DNA of 64,000 nucleotides from a virus, in the IMG/VR virus record IMGVR_UViG_3300022865_000557, positions 28,841 through 92,840 of that record. The stretch is one strand, 5' to 3'. The number at the start of each line of letters is the position of its first letter. Position 1 is the stretch's first letter. Below are positions 39,870 to 57,766 of the stretch, piece after piece. The position numbers and the translations under genes were made by a program. The notes beneath the pieces are model-generated. The model had not been told where the DNA came from. It saw nothing but the letters and a program-made list of their open reading frames with translations, and searched no databases.

Positions 39870-39878
39870 GATAAAATT

Positions 39879-41544: not shown

Positions 41545-41557
41545 AGGAGATAAGTAA

Positions 41558-41902: not shown

Positions 41903-41911
41903 GAGGCCTAA

Positions 41912-42097: not shown

Positions 42098-42103
42098 TAA
42101 CAC

Positions 42104-42139
42104 AACAGGGCAAGTCTTAGTTGACTATGCCCTGTTTTT
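42104..42139 (+). terminator. Intrinsic terminator after the lysis/bL33 block
   Basis: AACAGGGCA (42104-42112) pairs with TGCCCTGTT (42128-42136); inside it AGTC pairs with GACT, and TTTTT follows. The right side overlaps the promoter for the next gene. Confidence 0.75.
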
Positions 42140-42149
42140 ATAATATAAT
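42121..42149 (+). promoter_or_regulatory. Sigma70 promoter inside the terminator
   Basis: TTGACT at 42121-42126, 17-base spacer, TATAAT at 42144-42149. The -35 lies in the hairpin loop and arm and the spacer holds the T-run. The next ATG is at 42159, giving a leader of only a few bases. Confidence 0.75.
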
Positions 42150-42158
42150 AGTATCTTA

Positions 42159-42263
42159 ATGAAAATGCAGACACAAATAAAACTCCTGTTATGGCTAGTA
42201 ATAGCCTTTATGTCGCTAGGATTAAGTTTTATACTCTGGTTATTATATAAGATACTTTCATGA
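42159..42263 (+). CDS. Small membrane peptide upstream of dnaJ
   Basis: 34 residues, almost entirely one hydrophobic helix with a basic start (MKMQTQIK). It begins about three bases after the predicted +1 and overlaps the dnaJ ATG by four bases (ATGA). It may be a real membrane peptide or a leader that couples translation of dnaJ. Confidence 0.5.
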   Translation: MKMQTQIKLLLWLVIAFMSLGLSFILWLLYKILS

Positions 42264-43099
42264 CCCATTATCAAACACTAGGCGTAGCAGAAAATACCTC
42301 CCAAGATGATATCAAAAAAGCATATCGCAAACTCGCGATGCAACATCATCCTGACCGCAATAATGGTGACGATACAAAATTCAAAGAAATACAAATTGCA
42401 TACGATGCTGTAGGTGACGAACAAAAACGTCAGCAGTATGACATGCAAAGACAAAATCCAGGTGGCATTAGGTTTAACATCAATAATGGACAACATCCAG
42501 ACATTGATGAGATGTTGCGTAACTTTGGCTTTGGGTTTGCAAGAGGGCAAGATCCTTTTAGTGGTTTTAAGCAACCTAGAAAGAATAAAGACCTACGAGT
42601 AGAATTAGTAGTGCCGTTAAGTAGTACACTAGACGCACAAACTAAGACAATAAGTGTGCAAACAACCAATGGCCAAAGGCAAACGGTTAATGTAAAACTT
42701 CCTAGAGGAATAGTACCCGGAAGCACTATTAAATACCCACAACTAGGCGATAGTTTTTTTGAACAGTTGCCACAAGGTGATTTATACATCCAAGTGCAAG
42801 TGCAAAACGACACAGACTTTGCTGTCAATGGGTTAGACTTGTACAACGCCATTGACATAAATGCAATAGATGCTATAATAGGTACTAAGATAAGTGTTAC
42901 AAGTATAAGTGGCAAAACATTTGAAATGAACATCCCTGCAGGTACACAGCATGGCAAGAAGTTTAAGATTCCCAGCAACGGGCTGTATACAATGAATCAA
43001 TCTAGTAGGGGAAGTTTGATAATAGTTATTAACATAGTTATTCCGACAGATTTAACTGGTGAGCAACTGCAAACTTTACGCACAATCAATAACCTTTAG
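42260..43099 (+). CDS. DnaJ/CbpA-type co-chaperone
   Basis: 279 residues. An N-terminal J domain with His30-Pro31-Asp32 (QHHPDR) is followed by a Gly/Phe linker and a C-terminal substrate-binding region with two beta domains (RVELVVPLSSTL, VKLPRGIVPGSTI). There is no zinc-finger domain, so it is CbpA-like. It should stimulate host DnaK ATPase. Next to a ClpA-type unfoldase it forms a proteostasis pair. Confidence 0.88.
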   Translation: MTHYQTLGVAENTSQDDIKKAYRKLAMQHHPDRNNGDDTKFKEIQIAYDAVGDEQKRQQYDMQRQNPGGIRFNINNGQHPDIDEMLRNFGFGFARGQDPFSGFKQPRKNKDLRVELVVPLSSTLDAQTKTISVQTTNGQRQTVNVKLPRGIVPGSTIKYPQLGDSFFEQLPQGDLYIQVQVQNDTDFAVNGLDLYNAIDINAIDAIIGTKISVTSISGKTFEMNIPAGTQHGKKFKIPSNGLYTMNQSSRGSLIIVINIVIPTDLTGEQLQTLRTINNL

Positions 43100-43100
43100 C

Positions 43101-43108
43101 ACTAAATA
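43101..43108 (+). promoter_or_regulatory. Late-like box ACTAAATA
   Basis: Ends five bases before the ATG of the ClpA-like gene at 43114; the leader would be about zero. Confidence 0.45.
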
Positions 43109-43113
43109 TTTTT

Positions 43114-45381
43114 ATGTTACAAACAAATCCTGAAATAGACTATGTAGTACAAGAAGCAACAAAACTAGCAAAGAGCTACGAGCATGAATACATCACAGTA
43201 GAACATGTAATGTTAGCCATGATTAGATACGAGCCGCTATGCGTTCTGTTTGAAAAATCTCAAATCGATGTAAAAACAATAGATGCAGATTTAAGCCTTT
43301 ATATTTCTGAACAAGAAGATTTAGTGGTCCAAGGTTGTGAACCAAGAAAAACACATGCGCTCGAAAGAGTATTTAACAGAGCTTTGACTCAACTATTGTT
43401 TAGCGGGCGCACACAGCTACAGTTAATGGACTTGCTGTTAAGTATACAATCAGAAACAAATAGTTTTGCACAGTACTTTGCTGTAAAGCACGGGCTGACA
43501 CGTGAAAAAATGTTAGAACTGTTTGCACTTGTTAATGCAGATGGCGAAAATAAGAAAGTAGTTAATGCAAGCAAAGCAGAAAGAATTTTAGAACACTATT
43601 GTGACAACCTTAACAAAAAGGTAGCAGAAGGAAAGATAGACCCTGTCATTGGCAGAGAATTTGAGACAAACGAGATCATAGAAGTTATGGCTCGTAAGAA
43701 TAAAAATAATGTGTTACTAATTGGAGATCCGGGTGTAGGCAAGACTGCAATTGCAGAAGGGCTTGCACTAGCAATCGAAGCAAATACTGTTCCGGAGTTC
43801 TTACAAGGTTACGTTGTTTACAATCTTGACATAGGCTCGTTGCTTGCTGGTAGCAGGTACAGAGGAGACTTTGAAGAAAAAGTACAAGAAGTTATTAAAG
43901 CCTTAACTGTTAAAGGGAAGGCAATACTGTTCATTGATGAAGCACACCAAATGAAAGGTGCAGGCTCTACAGGGGCAAACGCAAGTGTAGATTTCAGTAA
44001 CATGATAAAGCCTGCGATCGGCAAAGGCAAGATCAAAGTAATGGCTTCTACAACGTGGGAAGAGTATTCAAATAGTTTCGAAAAGGATCGTGCATTGATG
44101 CGCAGATTCCAGCGTATTACTGTTGATGAGCCTACAGCAGAAGTAGCAAAAGAAATACTTACAGGGCTGAAAAGTGTATTTGAAAAGTTCCATGGTGGTA
44201 CAGTAACAAATGCTTCAATTGATGCGGCCGTTGATCTTAGTGTCAGATACCAAACAGATAAAAAACTGCCAGACAAGGCAATTGATTTAATCGACAGCAC
44301 ATGTGCCAGGTTAAAACTTAGCACTGCTATTTGGACAGTTACTAGAGCTGATATTATTGACAGCATTGCTAAGATGACTAAGATTCCTGCTGACCAAATT
44401 GGAAACCAGAAAGCAATTGTCAACTTCGAAGCGATTATAAAAGAAAAACTGTACGGACAGGATCAAGCAGTTGACACTGTATTGGAAAAAATATATGTAA
44501 GTAGAGCTGGCTTGAAAGCAATTAACAAGCCCGTTGGTAGTTTCTTGTTTACAGGACCAACAGGCACAGGCAAAACAGAACTTGCTAAACTGTTAGCAGA
44601 AAACCTAGGCATGAAGTTATTACGTTACGACATGAGCGAATACCAAGAACGTCACACTGTAGCAAAGTTAGTTGGCGCACCTCCAGGGTACGTAGGCTAC
44701 GATGACGGAAACTTAGGTGGTGGTATGCTTATTAGTGATATCGAAAAGAATCCAAACAGTGTTATATTAATGGATGAGATAGAAAAAGCACATCCAGACG
44801 TTACTAATGTGCTATTGCAGATGATGGATGAAGGAATGATTACCTCAAGCAACGGTAAGAAAGCAAATTGTCGTAACACAGTTATTATCCTTACCAGTAA
44901 CCTGGGTGCCGCAGACAACGAAAATAACACAATAGGCTTTGGTGACGAACTACAAAAAACAGGCGAGGATGACAAAGCAGTTAAGAAGTACTTTGCTCCT
45001 GAATTTAGGAATAGACTAGACGGGACTGTGAAGTTCAAGAAACTTGACGAACTAAGCATGCGTAAGATCGTAACAAAGTATCTAGTAGAAATTAATGATT
45101 TACTACTAGATAAAAATCTAAAGGTTAAACTTACAGAACCAGCAATAGGTGAACTTGTTGAACAAGGATTTGATCCCAAGATGGGAGCAAGGCCATTGCA
45201 ACGCAAAATGAACGAAGAAATAAAAGTTCCATTGAGTAAAAAAATGTTGTTTGAGCCCATTGTGCCCGGTAGCATTATAACTGTAGACTTTCGAGATGAT
45301 AAATTTACCTTTATTGTAGACTCACCAGAAAACACAACACACAAAGTAGACGATGATGGATTTATTATACTGGAAGAATAG
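43114..45381 (+). CDS. clpA: ClpA-type AAA+ unfoldase
   Basis: 755 residues. A Clp N-domain (1-145) is followed by two AAA+ modules: Walker A GDPGVGKT (204-211) with Walker B LFIDEA (272-277), and Walker A GPTGTGKT (481-488) with Walker B LMDEIE (552-557). Pore loops SRYRG and GYVGYDDG are present. There is no ClpB-type middle coiled coil. NTIGFGDEL (IGF at 607-609) falls where ClpA has its IGL ClpP-docking loop. A phage ClpP is encoded at 3617, so a phage-specific ClpAP protease is likely. Confidence 0.9.
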   Translation: MLQTNPEIDYVVQEATKLAKSYEHEYITVEHVMLAMIRYEPLCVLFEKSQIDVKTIDADLSLYISEQEDLVVQGCEPRKTHALERVFNRALTQLLFSGRTQLQLMDLLLSIQSETNSFAQYFAVKHGLTREKMLELFALVNADGENKKVVNASKAERILEHYCDNLNKKVAEGKIDPVIGREFETNEIIEVMARKNKNNVLLIGDPGVGKTAIAEGLALAIEANTVPEFLQGYVVYNLDIGSLLAGSRYRGDFEEKVQEVIKALTVKGKAILFIDEAHQMKGAGSTGANASVDFSNMIKPAIGKGKIKVMASTTWEEYSNSFEKDRALMRRFQRITVDEPTAEVAKEILTGLKSVFEKFHGGTVTNASIDAAVDLSVRYQTDKKLPDKAIDLIDSTCARLKLSTAIWTVTRADIIDSIAKMTKIPADQIGNQKAIVNFEAIIKEKLYGQDQAVDTVLEKIYVSRAGLKAINKPVGSFLFTGPTGTGKTELAKLLAENLGMKLLRYDMSEYQERHTVAKLVGAPPGYVGYDDGNLGGGMLISDIEKNPNSVILMDEIEKAHPDVTNVLLQMMDEGMITSSNGKKANCRNTVIILTSNLGAADNENNTIGFGDELQKTGEDDKAVKKYFAPEFRNRLDGTVKFKKLDELSMRKIVTKYLVEINDLLLDKNLKVKLTEPAIGELVEQGFDPKMGARPLQRKMNEEIKVPLSKKMLFEPIVPGSIITVDFRDDKFTFIVDSPENTTHKVDDDGFIILEE

Positions 45382-46081
45382 AGCTAGTCAGACAGAAATT
45401 CTGTCTACACACAAGAAGTTTTACAAGGCGTTCTTGTACAAAATGACTGTGTTTGCTCCTGGATGTCGTAGTATACTATGTCCGGACATTGCAGGAAGTT
45501 TAAAAAGCAGAAAAGAACTGGTAATAGGTCACTACAACTACGGTGGTAGTTGGTACAGTCCAAAAGTGCAAGAATGGGTTAGTCAAGCAGATATAACTCA
45601 GTTAAAAACGCTACAAGAAATGAGGATGCGCAGTCACTCACACAATATTAAAGTGCGTGTCGAGGAACCATACGTGGACATTTATGCATGCACTGAGGAA
45701 AAGTTAAAAGAGCTGTGTGAACTGCTGGATAACCCCAGTTCAGTTAAAAGCGTTAGTGGTCCACAGAGCAAACAAGCAGAAACGCTACTTGTTGACAACA
45801 AGATCTTACGAAAACGTAAGCCCAAGTGGCGTTACAAAATTGCCCTCAAGGATAAAAAATTCAGCAAAGACATCAAAGAATCTATATGGAATTATCTATT
45901 AGGGATCGGTGAGGAAATACACATGCCAAACATGGCACAACACCAGTTAACCAAAGATCACGAATGGATTTGGGGTTGTTATTTTTACACTAACGATTCT
46001 GGCGTTGTGAATATGTTAAGATTAATTGACCCAGACATGGTTAGAGAAGTTTCCGAGATGGTACAAGTAGGTGATAAATAG
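45353..46081 (+). CDS. Conserved hypothetical protein
   Basis: 242 residues; overlaps the ClpA end by 29 bases. Basic in the middle (RKRKPKWRYKIALKDKK), with CPDIAGS and a C-terminal acidic end. It may bind nucleic acid. Not recognised as a known family. Its coupling to clpA could hint at an adaptor role, without direct evidence. Confidence 0.5.
   Translation: MMDLLYWKNRASQTEILSTHKKFYKAFLYKMTVFAPGCRSILCPDIAGSLKSRKELVIGHYNYGGSWYSPKVQEWVSQADITQLKTLQEMRMRSHSHNIKVRVEEPYVDIYACTEEKLKELCELLDNPSSVKSVSGPQSKQAETLLVDNKILRKRKPKWRYKIALKDKKFSKDIKESIWNYLLGIGEEIHMPNMAQHQLTKDHEWIWGCYFYTNDSGVVNMLRLIDPDMVREVSEMVQVGDK
46073..46080 (+). promoter_or_regulatory. Late-like box GATAAATA
   Basis: At the stop of the previous gene; the next ATG (46102) follows after an AAGGAAA ribosome binding site. 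Confidence 0.35.
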
Positions 46082-46101
46082 TTAAAATTAAGGAAACAAC
46101 A

Positions 46102-46266
46102 ATGGCTAAAGTACATGAAGAAGTTTTAGTTATCACCGTAAGCAAACTAGTAAAAGATGACACGACCCCTGAATCAGTTGTAAGTGCAGACATACAAACA
46201 CAATTAGCAGAAGTTGCAGAACAGTTACTAGGCGAAGGTGTAATAGTTGAAGTAAGCAAAGCATAA
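46102..46266 (+). CDS. Small acidic protein
   Basis: 54 residues, beta-alpha layout (EEVLVITVSKL...QLAEVAEQLLG...VIVEVSKA). AAGGAAA before the ATG and a late-like box support it. Function unknown. Confidence 0.6.
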   Translation: MAKVHEEVLVITVSKLVKDDTTPESVVSADIQTQLAEVAEQLLGEGVIVEVSKA

Positions 46267-46295
46267 ATTTAATACAATCAAATAGAAAGAGTTCA

Positions 46296-47252
46296 ATGGC
46301 AAAAAAGAAACCAGGAAAGTCCTCACAGGCTAGTGCGGTTGCGGCAATCAAAGCGGCAGCCGAGAAGCCAGCAACATCCTCCCCACAGGCTAATGCAGTA
46401 GACATGATCAAAGCGGCAGCCGCTAAACGTCAAGAAGAACAACAGCAACAACAAGTTAACAGTGCAGTTCCACAAGGACAGCAGTTTGACTTTTCGAAAT
46501 GTCATCTGCACATTGGTATTCCCTGTTATGGTGGAATGGTAAGTGAACCCACTATGACAAGTTTGTTAAGATTTATTCTACTTGCACAACAGGCAGGACT
46601 TAACTGGTCTCTAGATACCATGGTTAACGAGTCATTAGTAACACGAGCACGTAACAACTTGATGGCCAAAATGATGACCAACAAGAGTGCTACACACTTT
46701 ATGTTTATCGATGCTGATATTAGATTCCAGCCAGAGTCCATTCTACAAATGATGGCTTGCAACAAAGAAGTTATTGGCGGACTGTATCCTAAGAAAGCAT
46801 TGCCGGTAAACTATGTAATTAACCTTAAGCCTGAAACCAAAGTACAAGGCGATGTCTTTACTGTGGACACAATGGGCACTGGTTTCTTATTATTCAAGAA
46901 AGAAGTATACCAGAAGTTATGTGATGCGCATCCAGAATGCAAGTACGTTGATGACGTTGGATTAGGTAAGCAATTTGAACCTACCATGTACAGTATCTTT
47001 GACTGTAAAATTGACGAAAAAGGACACTACCTCAGTGAGGACTGGTTGTTCTGTAGACGTTGGTCAGCAATTGGTGGTGAGATTTGGGCACACGGTAAAG
47101 TGTTGCTTAACCATATTGGACACTATGAATTTACAGGTGATCTCAGCAAGATGCCAGACTTTGCTAGGAATGAACACGTGCCAGGTGGTGGAGTGTTAAA
47201 CGATGCTATCGATATGGCCAGCAGGGGTCAAAAGGCAACAATTAACGGATAA
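46296..47252 (+). CDS. Glycosyltransferase-like protein (GT-A)
   Basis: 318 residues. Two copies of an Ala-rich SSQAxAVxxIKAAA element (residues 7-48) form a linker, then HIGIPCYGG, LVTRARNNL and FIDADIRF, the DxD-containing core of a GT-A glycosyltransferase. Such proteins are conserved in T4-like cyanophages. Target unknown, possibly a virion or DNA sugar. Confidence 0.72.
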   Translation: MAKKKPGKSSQASAVAAIKAAAEKPATSSPQANAVDMIKAAAAKRQEEQQQQQVNSAVPQGQQFDFSKCHLHIGIPCYGGMVSEPTMTSLLRFILLAQQAGLNWSLDTMVNESLVTRARNNLMAKMMTNKSATHFMFIDADIRFQPESILQMMACNKEVIGGLYPKKALPVNYVINLKPETKVQGDVFTVDTMGTGFLLFKKEVYQKLCDAHPECKYVDDVGLGKQFEPTMYSIFDCKIDEKGHYLSEDWLFCRRWSAIGGEIWAHGKVLLNHIGHYEFTGDLSKMPDFARNEHVPGGGVLNDAIDMASRGQKATING

Positions 47253-47260
47253 GGGCTATA

Positions 47261-47746
47261 ATGGCTGAAACAGAAAAGCTAAAATTTAGAATTGGTTTAA
47301 GTGGAACTAACCCAGACAAACAGCCGCAATATCGAATCGGTATAAATGGCAAAGGCAAAGTGTTTGGTGTACTTAGTACTGGTGTTAGCGAGACAGAGTA
47401 TGTAGAGTTCGAATCATCAGTAACAGAAGGCCCACAATGTTTGGAAATAGAACTGCTTAACAAAGGTTATGGCGATACTGTAACAGACGAAAACGGAGAA
47501 ATAATTAGCGATTTTCTCCTTAATATAGATAGTATTGAGATAGATGAAATTGATTTAGGTACACTCAAATGGACCCTAAGTGAATATTATCCGATTTATC
47601 CGCGTGATTATGTAAATCATGTTTTAGCAGAAACAGGCAACAAGCCAGACGAAGTTGTTAAAAGTTGTGTAAACATGGGATGGAACGGCAAATGGACACT
47701 GCCGTTCGAAAGCCCATTTTACATTTGGCTACTAGAGAACTTGTAA
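47261..47746 (+). CDS. Carbohydrate-binding-module-like protein
   Basis: 161 residues, beta-rich, with LLNIDSIEIDEIDLG and NMGWNGKWTLPFESPFYIWLLENL. The calcium-dependent xylan-binding CBM layout is likely, and similar proteins are known in T4-like marine phages. It may decorate the capsid or bind glycans. The protein at 49194 has a related layout. Confidence 0.55.
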   Translation: MAETEKLKFRIGLSGTNPDKQPQYRIGINGKGKVFGVLSTGVSETEYVEFESSVTEGPQCLEIELLNKGYGDTVTDENGEIISDFLLNIDSIEIDEIDLGTLKWTLSEYYPIYPRDYVNHVLAETGNKPDEVVKSCVNMGWNGKWTLPFESPFYIWLLENL

Positions 47747-47775
47747 GCTAAATATAGCAATAGAGCGGAAGATCA

Positions 47776-48678
47776 ATGTTTATTGCTAATTTATTTGAAA
47801 ACTATGTAAAAGAGAACAACGGCCCGGAAGTGGTAGTGGTATATCCAGGCCGTTTTCAACCTTTTCACTTAGGACACAAAGAAGTGTTTAACTCACTCCA
47901 AAACAAATTTGGACGTGATAATGTTTATATTGCAACCAGCAACAAAACAGACGGCGCTAAAAGCCCATTTAACTTTTCCGACAAAACCATATTCATGAAT
48001 GCGGCTGGTGTACCTAGTGATCGCATTATAGAAGTTTCAAACCCATACGCTTTACCCCAGCAATTCAACCCAGAAAATACTATCTTTGTTGCAGTAGTAG
48101 GTAGTCCCGACAAGAATAGACTCAATCCAGATTCAACTAAAAAAGACGGTTCGCCAAGTTATTTCAAGATGTTTGATAGTTTTGAAAAAGCTGAAACCGC
48201 AGATCGACATGGCTATGTAATCATTGCAGACGAACGCAATAAACAGATCACCTTAGGTGACGAAACTGTCGATGTTAGCCACGGCACACAGACTAGAGCC
48301 GCTTGGAACGCAGTTAGAAAAGATCCGAAACTGCGTTCCCAATTTTTAAAACAAATGTATGGCAGAGACGATCCAGAAGTTGGTCGTGTACTGGATAAGA
48401 TTACCGAAACAGTGAATGAGATGGGTGGTGTAGGTGTAATTGCAAGCAAAGGGCAAGCAAAAGATCCACGCTATAGTATGAGCTTAACCAAAGACATTAG
48501 ACCAGGTGAAACCAATAGACAGTTAGCGAAGATGGGACTGGGCGCAAAAGTCACCAGTCTCGGCGAAGAGATTGCAACACTTAAAGAAAAGTGGAGTGCA
48601 AAGTACAAGAAAAGTATCGACTGTAATAACCCTAAGGGATTTAGTCAAAAAGCACATTGTGCAGGGAAGAAAAAATGA
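47776..48678 (+). CDS. Nucleotidyltransferase (NMN-adenylyltransferase-like), possibly capsid-targeted
   Basis: 300 residues. After a short MFIANLFEN start, VVVYPGRFQPFHLGHKEVFNSL gives the HxGH nucleotidyltransferase motif of the NadM/CoaD superfamily, with VGSPDKNRL later. The C-terminal ~50 residues end WSAKYKKSIDCNNPKGFS then QKAHCAGKKK, a small basic Cys-containing domain typical of phage internal proteins. LFE near residue 8 could be a gp21-type cleavage site. It probably makes or salvages NAD-like compounds. A GCTAAATA box lies at 47747-47754. Confidence 0.72.
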   Translation: MFIANLFENYVKENNGPEVVVVYPGRFQPFHLGHKEVFNSLQNKFGRDNVYIATSNKTDGAKSPFNFSDKTIFMNAAGVPSDRIIEVSNPYALPQQFNPENTIFVAVVGSPDKNRLNPDSTKKDGSPSYFKMFDSFEKAETADRHGYVIIADERNKQITLGDETVDVSHGTQTRAAWNAVRKDPKLRSQFLKQMYGRDDPEVGRVLDKITETVNEMGGVGVIASKGQAKDPRYSMSLTKDIRPGETNRQLAKMGLGAKVTSLGEEIATLKEKWSAKYKKSIDCNNPKGFSQKAHCAGKKK

Positions 48679-49082
48679 GAATATTAGAAATTATAGAAGA
48701 AGCAAAATCAAGTTGCCCTATTGCAACACAAGACTTAGAAGTTAACACTGTTAATAGAGACTTTGCACAAGAAAAGTATAACTACGGTCCACTTAATATT
48801 GATGAGCCTGGCAATTATTGGGAAGGTGTTGCAAAAGAATGGGACACTACTGTAGAAGCCGCTAAAGAATCACTTTGCGGAAACTGTGTAGCATTCGATA
48901 TAAGTCCACGCATGGAAGACTGCATGCCGGGTCCCGTGAGCGAAGATGGTGGTAGACTAGGTTACTGTTGGATGCACCAATTCAAATGCCACAGTCTAAG
49001 AACATGCCACACATGGGCAAAAGGCGGTCCAATTACTGACGACGAAGTTAGCTATGACTGGGACAAAAGAAGCAATGACTAA
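48675..49082 (+). CDS. HiPIP-like Cys-rich protein, possibly capsid-targeted
   Basis: 135 residues from the ATG at 48675 (ATGA overlap, AGGGAAG upstream). It starts MRILEIIEEAKS, a possible T4-type capsid-targeting start with an IxE cleavage site. The second half has CGNCVAFD, DCMPG, GYCWMHQFKC and RTCHTW, whose spacing resembles high-potential iron-sulfur proteins. It may carry a [4Fe-4S] cluster. Similar proteins occur in T4-like marine phages. Confidence 0.6.
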   Translation: MRILEIIEEAKSSCPIATQDLEVNTVNRDFAQEKYNYGPLNIDEPGNYWEGVAKEWDTTVEAAKESLCGNCVAFDISPRMEDCMPGPVSEDGGRLGYCWMHQFKCHSLRTCHTWAKGGPITDDEVSYDWDKRSND

Positions 49083-49194
49083 CACTGCAACAGAACAATG
49101 GTCATGCAGTGGTGGCAACGAGAGCTGGGATGGGCACCCGTTGGTATATATACCAATTGGTAAACCTTGTCCTTATTGCGGAAATAGAGAGTAA
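49075..49194 (+). CDS. Mini zinc-ribbon protein (zf-CHCC-like)
   Basis: 39 residues. WSCSGGN, GHPLVYIP and CPYCGNRE reproduce the Cys-His-Cys-Cys layout of the zf-CHCC family, known from a respiratory complex I subunit and small bacterial proteins. It overlaps the previous and next genes by a few bases. The four ligands suggest one zinc. Role in a phage unknown. Confidence 0.65.
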   Translation: MTNTATEQWSCSGGNESWDGHPLVYIPIGKPCPYCGNRE

Positions 49195-49523
49195 TGGATA
49201 CCACACAACATCGAACTATGACGTTTGATGTTAAAGCGGCCTGGCATGATGAGCCTCCTCCAGTTTATAGAATATTTGTTGATGGTCACTTGATCACCGA
49301 ACGTACATTTGTATGGGCAGGTCACGAAACATATATAAAAGAAAATCTTGTGTGTGATTTACCGCCTGGCACACATGTGGTAAAAATTGAAAATGTGTCA
49401 ACACATGGTGAATTTAAACTAAACAATCTGCTAATAGACAACAAAGAACAACCCGAACAGCCAGGAAAAGACGGGTACGATCTCAAGCAGTGGACTTTCG
49501 TTTGCGATCTTAAACAGAGCTAA
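49194..49523 (+). CDS. Small beta-sandwich protein (CBM-like)
   Basis: 109 residues. PVYRIFVDGHLITERTF, ENLVCDLPPGTHVVKIENV and FKLNNLLIDN form the strand pattern of a calcium-dependent carbohydrate-binding module. TAATG overlap with the zinc-ribbon gene. Possibly a capsid decoration protein. Confidence 0.55.
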   Translation: MDTTQHRTMTFDVKAAWHDEPPPVYRIFVDGHLITERTFVWAGHETYIKENLVCDLPPGTHVVKIENVSTHGEFKLNNLLIDNKEQPEQPGKDGYDLKQWTFVCDLKQS

Positions 49524-49526
49524 ATA
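49519..49526 (+). promoter_or_regulatory. Late-like box GCTAAATA
   Basis: Contains the TAA stop of the previous gene; the next ATG is at 49549. Confidence 0.35.
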
Positions 49527-49548
49527 TAACTATTACAGGTATTAAACT

Positions 49549-50043
49549 ATGAAAACTAAAGATTTTATTAACGAAGCAGATTGTGCTATAGCCAACGATG
49601 CAGAAGTAATGCACCGAGATCACGAAGTACAGATGGCACGTGGTCAGTTATATAATGCCGCACAATATGCTATCGAACTTCATCGCATGCTTAAAAACAT
49701 AAGTGAAAGAGAAGGACTTGAAGGTTGGGTCCAAGCAAAAATTACCAAAGCAACTGATTATCTAAGTAGTGTTAAGCATCACTTAGAATATGAGCAAGTT
49801 AGCCAATCATCAGATGCTATGATGGATTTTGTTCCAGAAGGTGCAGAATATGCAATGGACAAGATACTAGACGAAACAGCAAGTGCAGGTGCCACAGGTG
49901 CAGGCTCTGTTGCTACAGCACCAACTGGTGATGGTGGTACAGGATTTGAAAAAGCAATTGGTCTTGGTAGAACACCGAACACCTACAAAAACAGTAGCAA
50001 GCAGGGCAAAGTTAAATTTGGCAAAGGCGTGTACAACAAATGA
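49549..50043 (+). CDS. Putative internal virion protein with capsid-targeting start
   Basis: 164 residues. The start MKTKDFINEAD closely matches the T4 internal-protein capsid-targeting sequence (MKTYQEFIAEA type), including the INE/A site for the gp21-like protease. The middle is helical, the end is Gly/Thr-rich and basic (KQGKVKFGKGVYNK). Probably packaged in the head and injected. Final effector function unknown. Confidence 0.62.
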   Translation: MKTKDFINEADCAIANDAEVMHRDHEVQMARGQLYNAAQYAIELHRMLKNISEREGLEGWVQAKITKATDYLSSVKHHLEYEQVSQSSDAMMDFVPEGAEYAMDKILDETASAGATGAGSVATAPTGDGGTGFEKAIGLGRTPNTYKNSSKQGKVKFGKGVYNK

Positions 50044-50597
50044 GCTCGATGAAAGATCTACTGGAAAAAATGGACGACAACTATCCATTTGCTGGCGAAA
50101 AGGCAACGCCTAAACAAATACCTGGTGATCAAGTTCGTGGTACAGACGCAGTTAAGATTGCCAAGCGTACAGTTCCTTACCAAAAGCACCCACTCCAGGG
50201 AAAACTTGTAGGTGGTGGTGCCGCTGAAGAGTCTGTAGAGCAAATCGCAGAACAGTTACGCAAAGAGCTTGAAGAGTATGGTGCTCCTGGATCAGGGATG
50301 AGCCGTGGGTCAAGTATGGACCGAACAGAAGTTTCACAGTTACGCAGAGATCAAAAAGCACAACAACAGCAAGCTGATTCGCAAGAAGATAATCTTGAAA
50401 AACAAATTAAGGGGTTGACACAGCAATCACTGGCAGTATCAAAACAACCAGTGGCTCCACCTAATCCAAACGATCCAGCATCTGTTGCACAGTTTGCCGC
50501 GGCAAGTAATCAAAAGAGGGCAGAGAAGCAACAACTAGCACTGCAAAGAAGAGCTCTTAACCAACAGAAGAAACAGTTCACTCAGTATAGCGAGTAA
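50040..50597 (+). CDS. Putative internal/scaffold-associated protein
   Basis: 185 residues; four-base overlap with the preceding gene. The start MSSMKDLLEKMDD may be another targeting start. VEQIAEQLRKELEEYG is a helical region, then a long Gln/Ala-rich coiled coil. Likely an assembly-core or internal protein; no enzyme motif. Confidence 0.55.
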   Translation: MSSMKDLLEKMDDNYPFAGEKATPKQIPGDQVRGTDAVKIAKRTVPYQKHPLQGKLVGGGAAEESVEQIAEQLRKELEEYGAPGSGMSRGSSMDRTEVSQLRRDQKAQQQQADSQEDNLEKQIKGLTQQSLAVSKQPVAPPNPNDPASVAQFAAASNQKRAEKQQLALQRRALNQQKKQFTQYSE

Positions 50598-50602
50598 TCA
50601 CA

Positions 50603-51394
50603 GTGTATATTAATAACTTCACAAAAAATAAAAAGCAAAAGCCAGCACCTATTGTAGATAAGTCTACACAATATCAACTTGATAGAAATGCAAATCTTGC
50701 AACTGGCACAATAGGTGATGCATATGGTTCACTTAGTCAACCAAAAAGCACTACGCCACAAGCATATACTCCCCCAGTTAAGACAGTAACAAAGGGGTCA
50801 AAGCAAACAGTAAAACCAGTTAAGTTTAATCCCAGGGGCGGACCCATAATTGCACGTAATGGATCAAAGCAAACAGCAGGATCAACGCAAACAGTAAAAC
50901 CAGTTAAGTTTAATCCCAGGGGCGGACCCATAATTGCACGTGAAGAAATGGAAGAGTTTATAGAGTTTATTGATTCACACGACAATGAAATTATGACCGA
51001 AGCACAGTTTGATGAAGCCGCAGGTGAGAAAGACGCTTGCTACCATAAGGTCAAGAGTCGTTACAAAGTGTGGCCTAGTGCATACGCAAGTGGTGCATTA
51101 GTACAGTGCCGTAAAAAAGGTGCTAAGAACTGGGGCAACAGTAAAAAGAAAAGCAACGAAAATGTAGAAATGGATAGCAAATTGGATGTTGACAAGTTGT
51201 TAACTAGCCTTAGAAATAGTAAAACCACTAATAGTGACAGACTTGCAGATGCAATTGAAATGCGGTTCATGCATAACATGACCTTTAAAGAGATAGGTGA
51301 AGAATTAAATGTTGGTCCTAGTAGAGCCGCTACGATTATTGAAAAGGCACTACGTTTGCTAAGGTGGCATGCCGCTAGGTCACCTGGGTCGTAA
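50603..51394 (+). CDS. Fusion of a DUF5872-like domain with a sigma-70 region 4-like helix-turn-helix
   Basis: 263 residues from a GTG at 50603 without good Shine-Dalgarno. Residues 1-115 are Pro/Lys-rich with two identical 18-residue repeats. DACYHKVKSRYKVWPSAYAS (about 136-155) with QCRKKGAKNW is a DUF5872-like phage domain. The C-terminal ~60 residues, AIEMRFMHNMTFKEIGEEL then NVGPSRAATIIEKALRLLRW, match sigma-70 region 4, which binds the -35 element. Possibly a transcription regulator carried in the head. An internal ATG at 51171 could give the sigma part alone. Confidence 0.65.
   Translation: MYINNFTKNKKQKPAPIVDKSTQYQLDRNANLATGTIGDAYGSLSQPKSTTPQAYTPPVKTVTKGSKQTVKPVKFNPRGGPIIARNGSKQTAGSTQTVKPVKFNPRGGPIIAREEMEEFIEFIDSHDNEIMTEAQFDEAAGEKDACYHKVKSRYKVWPSAYASGALVQCRKKGAKNWGNSKKKSNENVEMDSKLDVDKLLTSLRNSKTTNSDRLADAIEMRFMHNMTFKEIGEELNVGPSRAATIIEKALRLLRWHAARSPGS
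50804..50941 (+). repeat. Perfect 54-bp direct repeat within the sigma-like fusion gene
   Basis: Copies 50804-50857 and 50888-50941 are identical over 54 bases (18 codons, QTVKPVKFNPRGGPIIAR), 84 bases apart and in frame. Identity at every base indicates a recent duplication. Confidence 0.9.
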
Positions 51395-51422
51395 AAAAAA
51401 CTTAATTAGGCATAGAATAGAA

Positions 51423-52025
51423 ATGAGACTAACAGACTTTATCACAGAAAAATGCTGGAAAGGCTACGAAAAGAAGGGCATGAAAACCATGTTCGGCAAA
51501 CGTGTGCCTAACTGTGTTAAAAATGAATCTGCAGATGCAGTATCACTAGACGAGCATGGCAACTTGATATTTGAAGATGGTGTTAGTGAAGACCTAAAGA
51601 AATGGTTCAAAGAGAAGTGGGTCCGCTTTGGTCCAGATGGTAAGATACGTGGCGACTGTGCGAGAGGATCAAGCAAAGAAGGTAAGCCAAAGTGTTTACC
51701 ACAATCAAAAGCACAAGCACTAGGCAAGAAAGGCCGTTCAAGCAGTGCGGCTAAAAAGCGTAGAGAAGATCCCAAAAAGAATCGCAAAGGCAAAGCCAAG
51801 AACGTTGCTACTAAGACACGTGGTATGAAAGAACAAGGACCACCTGATTACAGCACTGGTAAGTCAGCTGATCAAAAAGGAATAAGCCCTAGGACAGTTG
51901 GTAAAGTAATACTAGACCCAGAAGGTACTGCACGAGAGGCTGGCGGTAGGGTATTACAAAAAGGCATGAATGCAGTTAAGTGCGCAATTACCCAAGATCC
52001 AACCTACTGCAACCTATCCAAATAA
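51423..52025 (+). CDS. Basic internal protein with capsid-targeting-like start (DUF6321-like)
   Basis: 200 residues from the ATG at 51423. It starts MRLTDFITEKCW with an ITE cleavage-type site, followed by KKGMKTMFGKRVPNCVKNE. The centre (FGPDGKIRGDCA, KPKCLPQSKAQALGKKGR, KKNRKGKAK) is the basic, Lys/Arg-rich DUF6321-like domain. Very likely nucleic-acid-binding and packaged. Role after injection unknown. Confidence 0.62.
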   Translation: MRLTDFITEKCWKGYEKKGMKTMFGKRVPNCVKNESADAVSLDEHGNLIFEDGVSEDLKKWFKEKWVRFGPDGKIRGDCARGSSKEGKPKCLPQSKAQALGKKGRSSSAAKKRREDPKKNRKGKAKNVATKTRGMKEQGPPDYSTGKSADQKGISPRTVGKVILDPEGTAREAGGRVLQKGMNAVKCAITQDPTYCNLSK

Positions 52026-52038
52026 TATCCTAAACCTC

Positions 52039-52067
52039 TTGTTTTATTAGTTCAGATACTGTATAAT
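52039..52067 (+). promoter_or_regulatory. Sigma70-type promoter
   Basis: TTGTTT (weak -35) at 52039-52044, 17-base spacer, TATAAT at 52062-52067. The downstream ATG is at 52096 with AGGAGA upstream. Confidence 0.6.
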
Positions 52068-52095
52068 AGTATACTTTACTAACAGGAGATCAGTA

Positions 52096-52356
52096 ATGTC
52101 ATCAAGAATGTTCAGTTCAGAGCAAAAAGCAAAACTCACACAGGTTGTTAACGAAGGTATTGCAGTAATGCAAGAAGTAGAAGATCTCAGCGCAGGTTTG
52201 AGTGATACAATCAAAGCAGTTGCAGAAGAAATGGAAATTAAACCCAGTATTCTTAAGAAAGCTGTGCGTATTGCATTTAAATCCAAACTCACAGACGAAA
52301 ACGCTGATCACGAAGATCTAAACACGATTCTCGAAACTGTCGGCCGTACCCTTTAA
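52096..52356 (+). CDS. DsbA-like double-strand DNA-binding protein (tentative)
   Basis: 86 residues, acidic, helical. Length, position before the polymerase and the AVAEEMEIKPSILKKAVRIAFKSK pattern recall the T4 DsbA family, which binds late promoter DNA. The match is not strong enough to be sure. AGGAGA ribosome binding site. Confidence 0.5.
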   Translation: MSSRMFSSEQKAKLTQVVNEGIAVMQEVEDLSAGLSDTIKAVAEEMEIKPSILKKAVRIAFKSKLTDENADHEDLNTILETVGRTL

Positions 52357-52365
52357 TTGAAAAAC

Positions 52366-52638
52366 ATGAAGAAGTTTTGGGTCAGCAGTTACACAAGTGA
52401 TCGCACAGCATTTTATCTCGAGCTGATTAGTTTTATAACAACTGTCGGTGCAAGTGCTTTATTGGCCGCAACAGCAGATTCTCCCAACATGCTCTTGGTA
52501 TACCCTGGTTTCTTTGTAGGGTGTATCACAGGTGCAATTGCATATCTACGTAGAAGTTTACCTTTTCCGTTTTTATTGACCAGCTGGTTCGCATGTGTTA
52601 ACATATTCGGATACGGTGTAGCATCAGGATGGTGGTAA
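52366..52638 (+). CDS. Small membrane protein
   Basis: 90 residues from the ATG at 52366. Three membrane helices (near 15-35, 40-58, 65-85) with a Trp at the end. Placed between the DsbA-like gene and DNA polymerase. Function unknown. Confidence 0.55.
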   Translation: MKKFWVSSYTSDRTAFYLELISFITTVGASALLAATADSPNMLLVYPGFFVGCITGAIAYLRRSLPFPFLLTSWFACVNIFGYGVASGWW

Positions 52639-52639
52639 T

Positions 52640-55303
52640 ATGAGTTACATAGACGCATTATTTGATAGAAAAGCAGATCGCATACATGTCGTGGAGCGTG
52701 TCAATGGGGAACGTGTATACAAAGAGTTTCCTGCTAACTATGTGTTCTACTATGATGATCCCAAGGGCAAGTTCCGTACAGTGTATGGTAGCCCTGTGAA
52801 TAGGTTCAGTACACGCAACGGCAAAGAGTTTCAAAAAGAAATGCGTGTGAACGGCGGAAAGAGATTATGGGAATCGGATATTAATCCAGTGTTCCGCTGT
52901 TTAGAAGAAAACTACCTGGGACAACAATCACCTAAACTGCAAACATGCTTCTTTGATATTGAGGTCGACTTTGACCCTGAACGTGGATTCAGTCCACCTA
53001 GTGATCCGTTCAATGCAGTAACTGCAATTACTGTGTACAACGACTGGATGGACAAGTTGATCACACTGGCTATTCCTCCCAAAGGACTTAGCTGGGAAAG
53101 TGCAGAAGAACTATGCAAAGACTTCGAAAACTGTTTCTTATTCGAACGTGAAGAAGAACTGTTGGGCACATTCTTAGATTTAATTGAAGATGCTGACATA
53201 CTGTCGGGTTGGAACAGTGAAGGTTTTGATATTCCTTACTTGGTCATGCGCATAAAGCGTGTACTTAGCAACGATGACAATAGACGTTGGTGCCTATGGG
53301 GGCAACTACCCAAGCAACGCACATTTGAACGTTTTGGTGCAGAGAATCTAACATTTGATTTAATAGGCAGAGTGCATATGGACTATATGCAACTGTATCG
53401 CAAATACACATACGAAGAACGTCACAGTTATTCACTAGATGCAATTGGTGAACACGAACTAGGTGAACGTAAAACACAATACGAAGGCTCACTTGATCAG
53501 TTGTATAACAAAGACTTCAAGACCTTTATTGAGTACAATCGACAGGATACCGCGTTGCTAGGCAAGATGGACAAGAAGTTACGTTTTTTAGATCTTGCAA
53601 ACGAACTAGCGCATGATAATACCGTACTGCTACAAACAACAATGGGTGCAGTGGCAGTTACAGAGCAGGCTATTATTAATGAGGCACATCAGCGTGGTAT
53701 GGTTGTACCTAATAGGAAAGGAAAAGAAGAACATGGAGAAACGCAAGCGGCAGGTGCCTATGTTGCTCATCCCAAAAAAGGGATGCACGACTGGATCGGA
53801 GCAATCGACATCAACTCACTCTATCCCAGTGCTATTAGGGCCCTCAACATGGCGCAAGAAAGCATCATCGGACAACTCAGACCGATAATGACAGACAGGT
53901 ACATCAAGGAAAAACAGGACGCTGGAAAGAGTTTTGCTGATAGTTGGGAAAACATGTTCGGTAGCCTTGAGTATCAAGCGGTAATGAATGGAGAGCCTGG
54001 CACAGAGATTACTGTAGACTGGGAAGCAGATGGTAGCAGTGATATAATGAGTGCCGCTGACATTTGGAGACTGATATTTGACAGTAACAAACCTTGGATG
54101 ATCAGTGCTAACGGTACTATATTCAGTTATGAAAAAAAGGCTATTGTACCAGGATTGTTAGAACGTTGGTATGCCGAACGTAAAGAACTACAAGCAAAGA
54201 AGCGTGACGCTGAGTCCGATGATGATATTGCATTCTGGGATAAACGACAGTTGGTTAAGAAGATTAACTTGAACAGTTTGTATGGCGCTATTCTTAATCC
54301 AGGTTGTAGATTCTTTGACAAACGTATTGGACAAAGTACTACACTATCCGGTCGTATCATTGCCAAGCACATGGATGCGTTTGTTAACGAAGCCATAACA
54401 GGTGTATATGATCACACTGGTGATGCAGTTGTGTATGGTGATACTGATTCTTGTTACTTCACTGCATGGCCCGCTATTAAAGATGATGTCGAAAGCGGTA
54501 AAATGGAATGGAACAAAGACATTGCTACACAAGTGTATGATAGCATCTCAGACCAACTTAATGAAAGTTTTCCATTGTTCATGGAAAAAGCCTGTCACTG
54601 CCCACGTGAAAATGGCGCATTGATCAAAGGTGGTAGAGAGATTACTGCAACTAAAGGCTTGTACATTAAGAAGAAGCGTTATGCGGCACTGATATATGAC
54701 ATGGAAGGTACTAGACTCGACGGCGGCGGCAAACCAGGCAAAGTTAAAGCCATGGGACTTGACTTGAAGCGAAGTGATACTCCGCCGGTTGTACAGAATT
54801 TCCTAAGTGATATACTACTTGGTGTACTAACAGGATCAACCAAAGAACAGATATATGATAAGGTTCGCGACTTTAAAATTGCATTCCAACAGCGTCCAGC
54901 ATGGGAAAAAGGTACTCCCAAGCGTGTAAACAATCTAACCAAGTACACTGCCGCTGAAAAAGCGCAAGGCAAAGCAAACATGCCTGGCCATGTAAGAGCC
55001 GCAATGAACTGGAACTATCTCAAACGCATGCATGGTGACAACTACAGTCAAAACATTGTTGATGGTATGAAAACTATTGTGTGCAAACTTAAAGAGAACC
55101 CAATGGGTTACAAGAGTGTAGGGTATCCAACAGATGTTTCACATATCCCACAGTGGTTTAAGGACTTGCCATTTGATGATGCACTAATGGAGGCAACTAT
55201 TGTGGATCAGAAAGTAGAGAACCTATTAAGTGTACTTAAATGGGATATTCCTGCACATACCAACATCAAAACAACATTTGACGACTTGTTCAGCTTCGAA
55301 TAA
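52640..55303 (+). CDS. B-family DNA polymerase (T4 gp43-like)
   Basis: 887 residues, full length for the family. The 3'-5' exonuclease motifs are FFDIEVDF (Asp106, Glu108), NSEGFDIPYL and YNRQDTALL. The polymerase motifs are DINSLYPSAIR (about residue 390), KINLNSLYGAIL (about 542) and YGDTDSC (about 599). It is the replicative enzyme of the phage and works with the clamp at 56368 and loader at 25212. No intein or split is seen. AATAAATA overlaps its stop codon. Confidence 0.97.
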   Translation: MSYIDALFDRKADRIHVVERVNGERVYKEFPANYVFYYDDPKGKFRTVYGSPVNRFSTRNGKEFQKEMRVNGGKRLWESDINPVFRCLEENYLGQQSPKLQTCFFDIEVDFDPERGFSPPSDPFNAVTAITVYNDWMDKLITLAIPPKGLSWESAEELCKDFENCFLFEREEELLGTFLDLIEDADILSGWNSEGFDIPYLVMRIKRVLSNDDNRRWCLWGQLPKQRTFERFGAENLTFDLIGRVHMDYMQLYRKYTYEERHSYSLDAIGEHELGERKTQYEGSLDQLYNKDFKTFIEYNRQDTALLGKMDKKLRFLDLANELAHDNTVLLQTTMGAVAVTEQAIINEAHQRGMVVPNRKGKEEHGETQAAGAYVAHPKKGMHDWIGAIDINSLYPSAIRALNMAQESIIGQLRPIMTDRYIKEKQDAGKSFADSWENMFGSLEYQAVMNGEPGTEITVDWEADGSSDIMSAADIWRLIFDSNKPWMISANGTIFSYEKKAIVPGLLERWYAERKELQAKKRDAESDDDIAFWDKRQLVKKINLNSLYGAILNPGCRFFDKRIGQSTTLSGRIIAKHMDAFVNEAITGVYDHTGDAVVYGDTDSCYFTAWPAIKDDVESGKMEWNKDIATQVYDSISDQLNESFPLFMEKACHCPRENGALIKGGREITATKGLYIKKKRYAALIYDMEGTRLDGGGKPGKVKAMGLDLKRSDTPPVVQNFLSDILLGVLTGSTKEQIYDKVRDFKIAFQQRPAWEKGTPKRVNNLTKYTAAEKAQGKANMPGHVRAAMNWNYLKRMHGDNYSQNIVDGMKTIVCKLKENPMGYKSVGYPTDVSHIPQWFKDLPFDDALMEATIVDQKVENLLSVLKWDIPAHTNIKTTFDDLFSFE

Positions 55304-55334
55304 ATACCTATGTACAATTACATAGTGATATTCA

Positions 55335-56318
55335 ATGAACCTCGTAGATCTTGTAAACACCAAAAACTCCCTCAGAAGTGGGCCTGACCTAGCTCCATTA
55401 TCTGCCGAGCTTGATAAAATTACCAAGCACTACCAAGATATTATTCTAGGTGTTGATCCTAGATTTACCGGATCTGTAAACATTTCTATAGATCATTATC
55501 AAACAATTAAAGATCAATTAGCCTTACACCAACCCAAGATTGAGCAGACAATTGCGGATATTGATGCAGAAATACTGAAACAAAGTCAAAAGTTTTTTAC
55601 AGAAAGTTATGCACTTGAGCGTGAGCTAAAGAGTGACTTTGATTCTTACGGAATGTTAACGCAAAATCTTAGAACAATGCGACACTGGCGGAATATTAGA
55701 TTAGACCAAACTGGTAGTCCAGATATGCACATGCTAGGAGTAATTCGAAAACATGTAGAACATAGATATCCTGTACTAGAGATAGGTTGCCGCGACGGGG
55801 ACTGGACTAAATTTTTAGTTGCTGGTGATCCATTATACATATCTGATTACACAGAAGAGTTTATGCATAATGCAGTGCACCAGTTTACGAAACAGTACAT
55901 TCCTAGAGTCAGGCAGTACCAAATAAAAGACAACAACATAAACGATCTGCCAGAAAATCAATTTGGTTTTGTTCTTAGTTACAACTTCTTTAATTATCTT
56001 GCATTTGATACTATCAAACAATGGATGCGCAAAGCGCACACTTGGTTAAGGCCAGGTGGTATTATAATGTTTACCTACAATAATGCAGATCATGGTTACG
56101 GTGCAGCCATGGCTGAAAGTAGCGTACAAAGTTATTGTCCAATGAGCTTACTTGTGCCCATGTGCGAAAGTATTGGTTTACAGTATCACGATCATAGAGA
56201 TTACGTAAACACACCATTTACTCCAATGAGCTGGATACAATTCAAAAAGCCAGGAGAGCTGTCCACAGTAAAAGTAGCACAGGCGTTAGGGCAAATAAAA
56301 TTATACTCTGAGACTTGA
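55335..56318 (+). CDS. SAM-dependent methyltransferase
   Basis: 327 residues. The N-terminal ~130 residues are helical. YPVLEIGCRDGDWTKF is motif I, FVLSYNFFNYLAF motif II and AHTWLRPGGIIMFTYN motif III. It lies between polymerase and clamp. The target is unknown; DNA is possible but no specific DNA-MTase motif was found. A short hairpin (CTATGTA-CAAT-TACATAG, 55308-55325) lies in its leader. Confidence 0.78.
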   Translation: MNLVDLVNTKNSLRSGPDLAPLSAELDKITKHYQDIILGVDPRFTGSVNISIDHYQTIKDQLALHQPKIEQTIADIDAEILKQSQKFFTESYALERELKSDFDSYGMLTQNLRTMRHWRNIRLDQTGSPDMHMLGVIRKHVEHRYPVLEIGCRDGDWTKFLVAGDPLYISDYTEEFMHNAVHQFTKQYIPRVRQYQIKDNNINDLPENQFGFVLSYNFFNYLAFDTIKQWMRKAHTWLRPGGIIMFTYNNADHGYGAAMAESSVQSYCPMSLLVPMCESIGLQYHDHRDYVNTPFTPMSWIQFKKPGELSTVKVAQALGQIKLYSET

Positions 56319-56343
56319 TTTTCTAAATACAATCTGTTATAAT
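56315..56343 (+). promoter_or_regulatory. Sigma70 promoter for the sliding clamp
   Basis: TTGATT at 56315-56320 (overlapping the previous TGA stop), 17-base spacer, TATAAT at 56338-56343. The ATG at 56368 follows GGAGGT. Confidence 0.75.
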
Positions 56344-56367
56344 TAATCATCTTTAACGGAGGTACAA

Positions 56368-57087
56368 ATGAAAGATTATTTACAAGATATAGTAAAACAC
56401 ACACATGCTCTTGGCTTTATTGAGTTGGTAAAAGTCACAGGCACTGCAACAGAAACAAAAGTTGATGCAGTTAGCGAAGACAGAAGTGCTATTGTGCAGG
56501 CTCAGTTTCACAATCCGGTTCCAGATTTTGTTGGAACATTTGGTATGCCAAATCTAGGCAAACTAAACACAATTCTTAATATTCCAGAGTACAGCGAAGA
56601 TGCCAAACTTACAGTAAGCAAAACTGACGCTGGGCCAGCAGGTGTAAACTTTGAAAATGCCGCAGGTGACTTTAAGAACGATTACAGGTTTATGAGCAGT
56701 GAAATTGTAAACGACAAGCTCAAAGCAGTTAAGTTCCGAGGTGTTAAATGGGGCGTAGAGATTGAGCCAAGTGTAGCCAGTATTCAAAGACTAAAGCACA
56801 TGGCTAGTGCAAACAGCGAAGAAACTACTTTTATTGCAAAGACAGAAGACAACAAGTTGAAGTTCTACTTTGGCGATCACAGCACACATGCAGGTGACTT
56901 TGTGTTTGCACATGATGTTGAAGGTACACTGAGCAAAGGTTGGAATTGGCCTGTAGCCGCTGTTATCAGTATACTAAGTCTGTCAGGCGATAAGATGATT
57001 AAATTTAGTGATGAGGGAGCCGCACAGATCACTGTTGATTCAGGACTAGGTGTTTACAACTATATACTTCCAGCACAACAGAAGTAA
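56368..57087 (+). CDS. Sliding clamp (T4 gp45-like)
   Basis: 239 residues, close to T4 gp45 length. Beta-rich repeats, VDAVSEDRSAIVQAQF, RGVKWGVEIEPSVASIQRLK and the end GLGVYNYILPAQQ fit the trimeric phage clamp. It tethers DNA polymerase and, in T4, activates late transcription. Strong GGAGGT ribosome binding site and its own promoter fit early, high expression. Confidence 0.85.
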   Translation: MKDYLQDIVKHTHALGFIELVKVTGTATETKVDAVSEDRSAIVQAQFHNPVPDFVGTFGMPNLGKLNTILNIPEYSEDAKLTVSKTDAGPAGVNFENAAGDFKNDYRFMSSEIVNDKLKAVKFRGVKWGVEIEPSVASIQRLKHMASANSEETTFIAKTEDNKLKFYFGDHSTHAGDFVFAHDVEGTLSKGWNWPVAAVISILSLSGDKMIKFSDEGAAQITVDSGLGVYNYILPAQQK

Positions 57088-57764: not shown

Positions 57765-57766
57765 TT

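Follow-up and report, generated by a model that had tools for sequence, protein, structure and literature searches.

Candidate T4-type capsid-targeting leaders on exchangeable cargo in a phage gene run from IMG/VR

The gene run and its source phage

The phage DNA considered here, a window of 64,000 nucleotides, corresponds to positions 28,841-92,840 of the 92,840-base record IMGVR_UViG_3300022865_000557 and holds, at 47,776-52,025, a run of genes (Table 1), five of which open with short N-termini resembling the leader that targets internal proteins of phage T4 to the capsid. The window matches positions 59,564-123,563 of a second record, IMGVR_UViG_3300022866_000322 (221,342 bases), at 99.85-100% identity over its full length, and because of this identity across the entire window both records were taken as one phage, a large aquatic relative of T4. 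Its DNA polymerase places two jumbo phages closest among named ones, Sinorhizobium phage Phosso at 50.5% and Agrobacterium phage Atu_ph07 at 42.9%; Rak2-like phages, GAP32 and CBB among them, come next (~41%). A megablast of window positions 40,000-60,000 against named phages gave no match. Gene calls were made for this work with a crude script.

Table 1. Features of the gene run in window coordinates, with putative leaders, candidate cut sites (slash) and the rank of each N-terminus in a matrix scan of 294 genes
Feature	Position	Strand	Leader and candidate site	Rank	Remarks
NMNAT-like nucleotidyltransferase, 300 residues	47776..48678	+	MFIANLFE/N at 47776-47799 (LFE/N)	35	PF01467
C-terminal module A (WSAKYKKSIDCNNPKGFSQKAHCAGKKK) of the 47776 gene	48592..48675	+	LKE/K ahead of the module		module also in cyanophages
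Cys-rich protein, 135 residues	48675..49082	+	MRILEIIEE/A at 48675-48701 (IIE/E and IEE/A)	7	
Protein of 109 residues	49194..49523	+	no leader	205	nothing in Pfam or PHROGs at E 0.1
Module H protein, 164 residues	49549..50043	+	MKTKDFINE/A at 49549-49575 (INE/A)	1	
Basic protein, 185 residues	50040..50597	+	MSSMKDLLE/K, or MKDLLE/K from 50049; site ends at 50066 (LLE/K)	83	
Protein of 263 residues, GTG start	50603..51394	+	no leader	238	module C, C-terminal sigma-70 region 4
Basic protein, 200 residues	51423..52025	+	MRLTDFITE/K at 51423-51449 (ITE/K)	6	

The protein encoded at 47776 passes the threshold of the cytidylyltransferase-like fold family PF01467 (E 2.6e-6, 28.1 bits, cut-off 21), which bears out the nucleotidyltransferase label proposed in an earlier note on this DNA. 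It also shows a sub-threshold match to the archaeal NMNAT equivalog TIGR01527 (E 2.2e-8, 33.8 bits, cut-off 181.2) and a match to the PDB entry 1m8j (E 0.0028), and its closest likeness in sequence is to archaeal-type NMNAT. The description of the Cys-rich protein at 48675 as HiPIP-like was not upheld, since no HiPIP model was found for it in Pfam at E <= 0.1, no NCBIfam family and no PDB match at E <= 1, and only the GenBank names of homologues say HiPIP; a predicted structure of this family had a predicted local distance difference test score of 52.9 and was not used. In Actinomycetia phage DSL-LC01 (locus L439, 3659-4393), a HiPIP-named Cys-rich gene adjoins two genes named capsid maturation protease.

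The gene at 49549 contains a second candidate site, LDE/T, ending at 49875 and lying ahead of ASAGATGAGSVATA, and its nearest homologues start with MKPTEFIVE/N and MKTTEFIVE/N. In the gene at 51423, module B (CWKGYEKKG..PNCVK, 51453-51521) is followed by VSE/D (51582-51590) and then by module D (LKKWFKEKWVRF..); its homologues start with MRITDVITE/KC, MKYRELLE/AC and MLIEEILSE/KC, and its modules recur in cyanophage polyprotein-like genes. The longest frame of this gene opens at 51369, and in homologues such as L286, L290 and L335 the Met equivalent to that at 51423 stands directly after a stop codon. The gene at 50603 combines module C (KDACYHKV..NWGN, 51029-51139) with a sigma-70 region 4 (Sigma70_r4, E 8e-8, residues 212-254; phrog_727, E 2.9e-26), so that a sigma-70 region 4 is fused here to a module in a virion-module-like protein. 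The earlier note had described the cargo as including basic DNA-binding domains: the basic character holds for 47776, 50049, 50603 and 51423 (isoelectric points of 9.0-9.9) and fails for 48675 and 49549 (4.6 and 5.7). An association with DNA is plausible for the module proteins, given their small size, frequent basic character and Cys content.

Leaders of the run and their excess over chance

In T4, the protease gp21 cuts after L/I-x-E, and for IPIII a stretch of the first 10 residues is enough, residues 4 and 7 mattering most for targeting and residues 8 and 10 for processing (PMC9026906); here, as for the other papers cited below, statements refer to the sections of the source that were covered. 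The motif from which the earlier note had started was quoted correctly, as ipII and ipIII of the T4 record begin with MKTYQEFIAEA, and in the same record Alt begins with MELITELFDE and gp22 with MLKEQLIAEA. The five N-termini that it had singled out (47776, 48675, 49549, 50040 and 51423) were all found where it had placed them, and each carries [LI]xE within the first nine leader residues.

To evaluate the leaders, a position matrix was built from those of T4 IPII/IPIII and of cyanophage NMNATs, using no sequence from the window, and was run over the 294 genes of the 221-kb record with alternative starts allowed for every gene. Three of the nine cluster genes fell within the top seven (p = 6.6e-4), and a rank-sum test over all nine gave p = 0.021; five N-termini with [LI]xE exceed chance. 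The leaders at 49549, 51423 and 48675 are clear candidates, and those at 47776 and 50049 rest on conservation: LFE[NS] is kept in all 21 rows that reach residue 1 of the former (four rows being copies of the same phage), and LLE[KS] in 23 of 23 rows of the latter (eight being such copies). A further gene at 52096, outside these five, ranked 22nd. The pattern ^M.{3,8}[LI].E was rejected as a sole criterion, since with 23 matches among the 294 genes it is too common, and the counts of [LI]xE along 50603, 51423, 49549 and 47776 (2, 3, 3 and 5 versus 1.7, 0.9, 1.3 and 1.5 expected) were not used.

Additionally, the leader pattern was followed beyond the window in 379 fetched loci, whose 2,875 genes with distinct N-termini were reduced to 2,436 by removing 439 homologues of the queries detected by BLAST. 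M[KR].{1,4}[FIL][ILVM].E was present in 53 of these 2,436 neighbouring genes, some of the 53 being related to one another and the pattern having been picked after examples were seen, versus 14.6 +/- 3.6 when residues 3-13 were shuffled; none of 500 shuffles reached 53. This count replaces an earlier enrichment figure of 128 of 2,875, which was inflated because the loci had been chosen by leader-bearing queries. With query homologues still included, leader-bearing proteins were more often basic, with an isoelectric point above 9 in 54% versus 37%.

Exchange of leader and cargo

Comparison of homologues indicates that leader and cargo change INDEPENDENTLY. In 18 aligned sequences of the Cys-rich protein (that of the window and 17 others), the cargo is kept from CPxxTQD (Cys14) onward, and the stretches ahead of it vary, including MRILEIIEEA, MKLKDILIES, MKKFKLFEEF, MKSFFKFIKEQ, MKHVVPFINFINEN and MSKLYTFKQFLFET; in one contig, the same cargo lies inside a 970-codon frame, behind EVIIEAE. 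Module A, in turn, ends the NMNAT-like protein of this phage and sits right behind MKTFKQFQE or MKSFKQFQE in SynMITS9220M01_096 and Bellamy_122, and modules B, C and D occur joined to one another within cyanophage genes. A second run of the same phage, outside the window (39,672-41,068 of the 221-kb record; L001, 8949-10345), includes four leader-like starts, MNILRSIMER, MHIKDIINES, MRASELYES and MRAREFVIEN, of which only MHIKDIINES (18) and MRAREFVIEN (34) ranked within the top 40 of the matrix scan; the MRAREFVIEN gene encodes a 65-residue basic protein, module G. By eye, SprT-like and zinc-peptidase-like proteins are among the products of these four genes.

Prohead protease and capsid genes

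The earlier note had proposed to look for a gp21-like protease in the genome, and the 221-kb record of the same phage does encode a prohead protease of the S77 (gp21) type (PF03420, E = 3.2e-27); its gene lies about 1.1 kb ahead of gp23 (PF07068, E 1.2e-98), in a single gene run that, by eye, also holds portal, core and scaffold proteins. At the position expected for removal of its propeptide, this gp23 carries ..KSLQE/TATAGS.., which would be the cut site. Profile searches for S77 and gp23 in the window's own 92.8-kb record found neither, which is uninformative because that record is a fragment. Among 28 IMG/VR contigs longer than 100 kb, 26, all of them module-bearing, were searched for both families (L056 and L408 were left out), and S77 was detected in 14 of the 26 and gp23 in the identical 14.

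A separate resemblance was noticed between the two loci: the piece of the 49549 protein that follows LDE (window 49876-49920, TASAGATGAGSVATA) is similar to gp23 of the 221-kb record after the presumed cut (TATAGSTAAGNVATL), and short genes such as MKISDIIQE/TATAGATSSGSITSV share this stretch.

The leader could instead send proteins to the neck, tail or baseplate, in which case the cargo would be structural and not injected. The gene order in cyanophages speaks for such a role, given that in three of the four cyanophages compared, genes carrying these modules are placed between those for the small terminase and the tail sheath, S-PRM1 being the one that differs. Nevertheless, the leader resembles those of head-internal proteins of T4, the protease for which [ILV]xE is the site works in the prohead (PMC9026906), and the leader is borne by enzymes, namely NMNAT, an S-adenosylmethionine (SAM) hydrolase and a kinase. 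A destination outside the head is regarded as improbable.

Leader-bearing proteins in virions of related cyanophages

Virion proteomes have been published for related cyanophages. In S-SCSM1, mass spectrometry identified 45 phage proteins in virions purified on caesium chloride, NMNAT included (PMC9602691); this NMNAT starts with MKSFLQFLKEA, to be compared with MKTYQEFIAEA in T4, and the bead polyprotein SSCSM1_29 is labelled a virion protein in GenBank. Among 29 distinct N-termini of NMNAT homologues, 24 fit MK[SN][FLY]..FL.E[ASG], and the other five comprise one truncated sequence, the ambiguous one of S-PRM1, one shifted variant (MQKSFKSFTQYITEA) and two that carry no leader. The annotated start of Bellamy_170 (L144, 3830-5017) misses an upstream NMNAT leader, MKSLFQFLNEA.

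In S-CREM2, 52 proteins were detected in virions by mass spectrometry, 28 of them non-structural or unknown (PMC10665884). The strict T4-type pattern ^M[KRQN].[FYL]..[FI][LIMFT].E matches 5 of its 219 open reading frames (ORFs), and all five are among these 28 virion proteins: a cytidylyltransferase (MKNFSSFLTEA), a kinase (MKRFDAFLTEE), a SAM hydrolase (MKDFDSFLEE), ORF13 (MKDLHSFLTEQ) and ORF136 (MQTFSMFFSED). All of these matches stand at annotated starts, ORF14 opening with GTG, and the strict pattern was written after the first output, so that its p = 2.5e-5 is post hoc. A looser pattern was found in 7 of the 28 detected proteins and in 8 of the 167 ORFs that were undetected (p = 0.0017), and the matrix described above, which preceded the strict pattern, gave five of its top nine (p = 0.002), or four of eight when the training family was removed (p = 0.009). 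ORF12, annotated as Cas9, was left out of the count because its PLRFASFMAEAA is found 16 residues downstream of the annotated start and has CTG as its Leu codon. Moreover, S-CRM01 virions reportedly contain a kinase with 32% identity to its S-CREM2 counterpart (PMC10665884), and the corresponding S-CRM01 gene, at 31.8% identity, starts with MISFDQFLSEK; a putative cytidylyltransferase was likewise found in S-SM1 virions (PMC3037559).

Behind the leader of the S-SCSM1 NMNAT lies a stretch like LGL.SDGHG.W.D, which by eye recurs in the S-CREM2 ORF14 kinase and in ORF12, the kinase showing a GFGYW form first and the DGHG form later; the places are L440 10579-12846, L440 7704-10313 and L140 39407-40633.

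It could be argued that these cyanophage enzymes are contaminants of the caesium chloride preparations and that their shared N-termini have some other role, for instance in efficient translation or in localisation within infected cells. The S-CREM2 authors themselves left the question open, allowing that highly expressed proteins may not separate from virions (PMC10665884), and leader length and information content are both low. On the other hand, a signal for translation leaves unexplained why [ILV]xE recurs at module junctions inside long proteins, and detection in S-CREM2 tracks the leader under both the strict (5 of 5, post hoc) and the looser pattern. The shared leader argues for packaging of these enzymes, and an origin as contaminants is considered unlikely. 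In the sections of the S-SCSM1 and S-CREM2 papers that were covered, a targeting leader is not described, the S-CREM2 main text containing neither 'N-terminal' nor 'targeting'. A search of open-access full text for capsid targeting together with cyanophage returned only a T4 review, subscription papers lying mostly outside its scope, and related searches gave papers on T4, SPN3US and other phages.

[ILV]xE at module junctions

The residues that precede the modules were compared across loci. For module G, the 80 best of 581 relatives, together with chance hits elsewhere among the fetched loci, gave 86 distinct upstream contexts; 7 unparsed contexts, which also show ENFADG, were dropped, 25 were short leaders, and the 54 internal ones were reduced to 47 non-redundant junctions. 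At these internal junctions, Glu occupies the position directly ahead of the module (P1) in 47 of 47 and I/L/V/M the third position ahead (P3) in 36 of 47, with I/L/V/M at each of P4-P16 in only 6-17 of 47. The short leaders behave alike, with Glu at P1 in 25 of 25 and I/L/V/M at P3 in 23 of 25. Module A (22 contexts, some of them short leaders) has the two features in 21 and 18 cases, and module D (15 contexts) in 12 and 11; modules B and C are weaker, with 7 and 8 of 22 and 7 and 7 of 12, respectively. These statistics fit the L/I-x-E specificity, and it is the T4 gp21 motif that occurs at the points where unrelated sequences join a module. That Glu at P1 and the hydrophobic residue at P3 instead belong to the module folds, for example as a common helix start, is very improbable: the Glu ahead of NFADG is invariant in module G and could be part of the domain, but modules A, D and G differ in sequence and yet share [ILV]xE with other upstream positions varying, and stand-alone module G genes mostly have 8-9 residues ahead of the module.

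Interpretation and its weight

Taken as a whole, the findings are in our judgement probably best explained by capsid targeting of the T4 type, with cargo that can be exchanged. The suggestion of a T4-like capsid-targeting leader is well supported by the sequences and by the presence of the S-SCSM1 NMNAT and bead polyprotein and of the S-CREM2 cytidylyltransferase in virion proteomes. The earlier note had also implied that the entire run is tagged, which was not borne out, given that the genes at 49194 and 50603 carry no leader.

Several observations weigh against this explanation. Besides these two genes, a 46-codon frame at 49054 also lacks a leader (rank 220), and two of the five leaders, those at 47776 and 50049, score weakly by the matrix. 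No clear leader was seen in three Cys-rich homologues (L078, L083 and L088), and leaderless Cys-rich homologues occur in two other named phages, a 33-kb phage and DSL-LC01. A fixed-distance [ILV]xE was looked for at modules B, C and the Cys-rich cargo and was not kept there, and 12 of the 26 long contigs searched, which may be fragments, show neither S77 nor gp23. The virion data come from relatives only and not from this phage; among them, S-SCSM1_30 (MKTFKQFMSES), one of two strict-pattern matches of S-SCSM1, is not labelled a virion protein, and a matrix rank test of the 28 S-CREM2 virion proteins versus undetected ORFs gave no shift (p = 0.48), because most of them carry no leader. Finally, the leaders fall short of that of T4 IPIII by at least one residue (MRLTDFITE versus MKTYQEFIAE), and strict IPIII spacing, with hydrophobic residues at 4 and 7 and Glu at 10, matches none of the 294 genes, the Glu standing here at 6, 8 or 9. 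This spacing does not define the T4 family, since IPII and IPIII have it and T4's own IPI and Alt do not.

For this phage we infer core targeting, cutting after [LIV]xE and release of modules, in the following manner. By way of their leaders, the NMNAT-like enzyme, the Cys-rich protein and the small basic proteins built of several modules, all unrelated cargo, would enter the prohead core, where the S77 prohead protease would then cut after [LIV]xE, taking the leader off and probably also separating the modules within longer proteins. The mature proteins would remain with the DNA and would probably be ejected into the host. A packaged NMNAT could keep nicotinamide adenine dinucleotide (NAD) available as infection starts, and such a role in NAD supply at the onset of infection has been proposed by cyanophage authors (PMC9602691, PMC10665884).

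Should the leader be a marker of packaging, the cargo of virions would become readable from sequence in unculturable phages, and the NMNAT, SAM hydrolase and kinase of cyanophage virions would be likely cargo and not contaminants. T4-style targeting would then extend far past the T-even phages, and a phage head protease may process polyproteins. A wider possibility, which is quite real and yet held only tentatively, is that aquatic T4-like phages share a common head-cargo code, in which exchangeable mini-domains and enzymes are loaded via T4-type leaders, many of the mini-domains as polyproteins processed at [ILV]xE by the prohead protease within the head; the products would be small, basic and Cys-containing and would coat the DNA or go along with it. 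Were this the case, the leader alone would predict injected effectors, genome by genome.

Other genes of the window

Elsewhere in the window, c-type-cytochrome-like, Cu/Zn superoxide-dismutase-like and IscA/HesB-like proteins were recognised by eye at 6914-9452, and several CxxxCxxC-type proteins resembling radical SAM enzymes at 1162-2346, 5791-6948, 27492-28487 and 60907-62472.

Comparison with known systems

The features described here can be set beside three known groups of virion proteins. As in the case of T4 IPI, IPII, IPIII and Alt, whose capsid-targeting sequences are cut by gp21, a leader of about 10 residues ends in [LI]xE, an S77 protease and gp23 are encoded, and the cargo is variable and often basic. 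Unlike in the T4 internal proteins, the leader is shorter, the cargo is NMNAT-like, Cys-rich or multi-module, and the modules also sit inside long proteins behind [ILV]xE. The S-SCSM1 NMNAT and the S-CREM2 cytidylyltransferase, SAM hydrolase and kinase share the T4-type leader, and these are virion proteins detected by mass spectrometry. A further likeness is found in the ejection proteins of phiKZ-like phages and SPN3US, whose head proteins are cut after a short Glu-ending motif by a gp21-related protease; most of the SPN3US propeptides named in the parts of the literature covered exceed 100 residues (one has 20), whereas the candidate propeptides here have 6-9. Taken together, the system, known here from its sequence, appears to work like the capsid-targeting system of T4, whose sequence features it shares.

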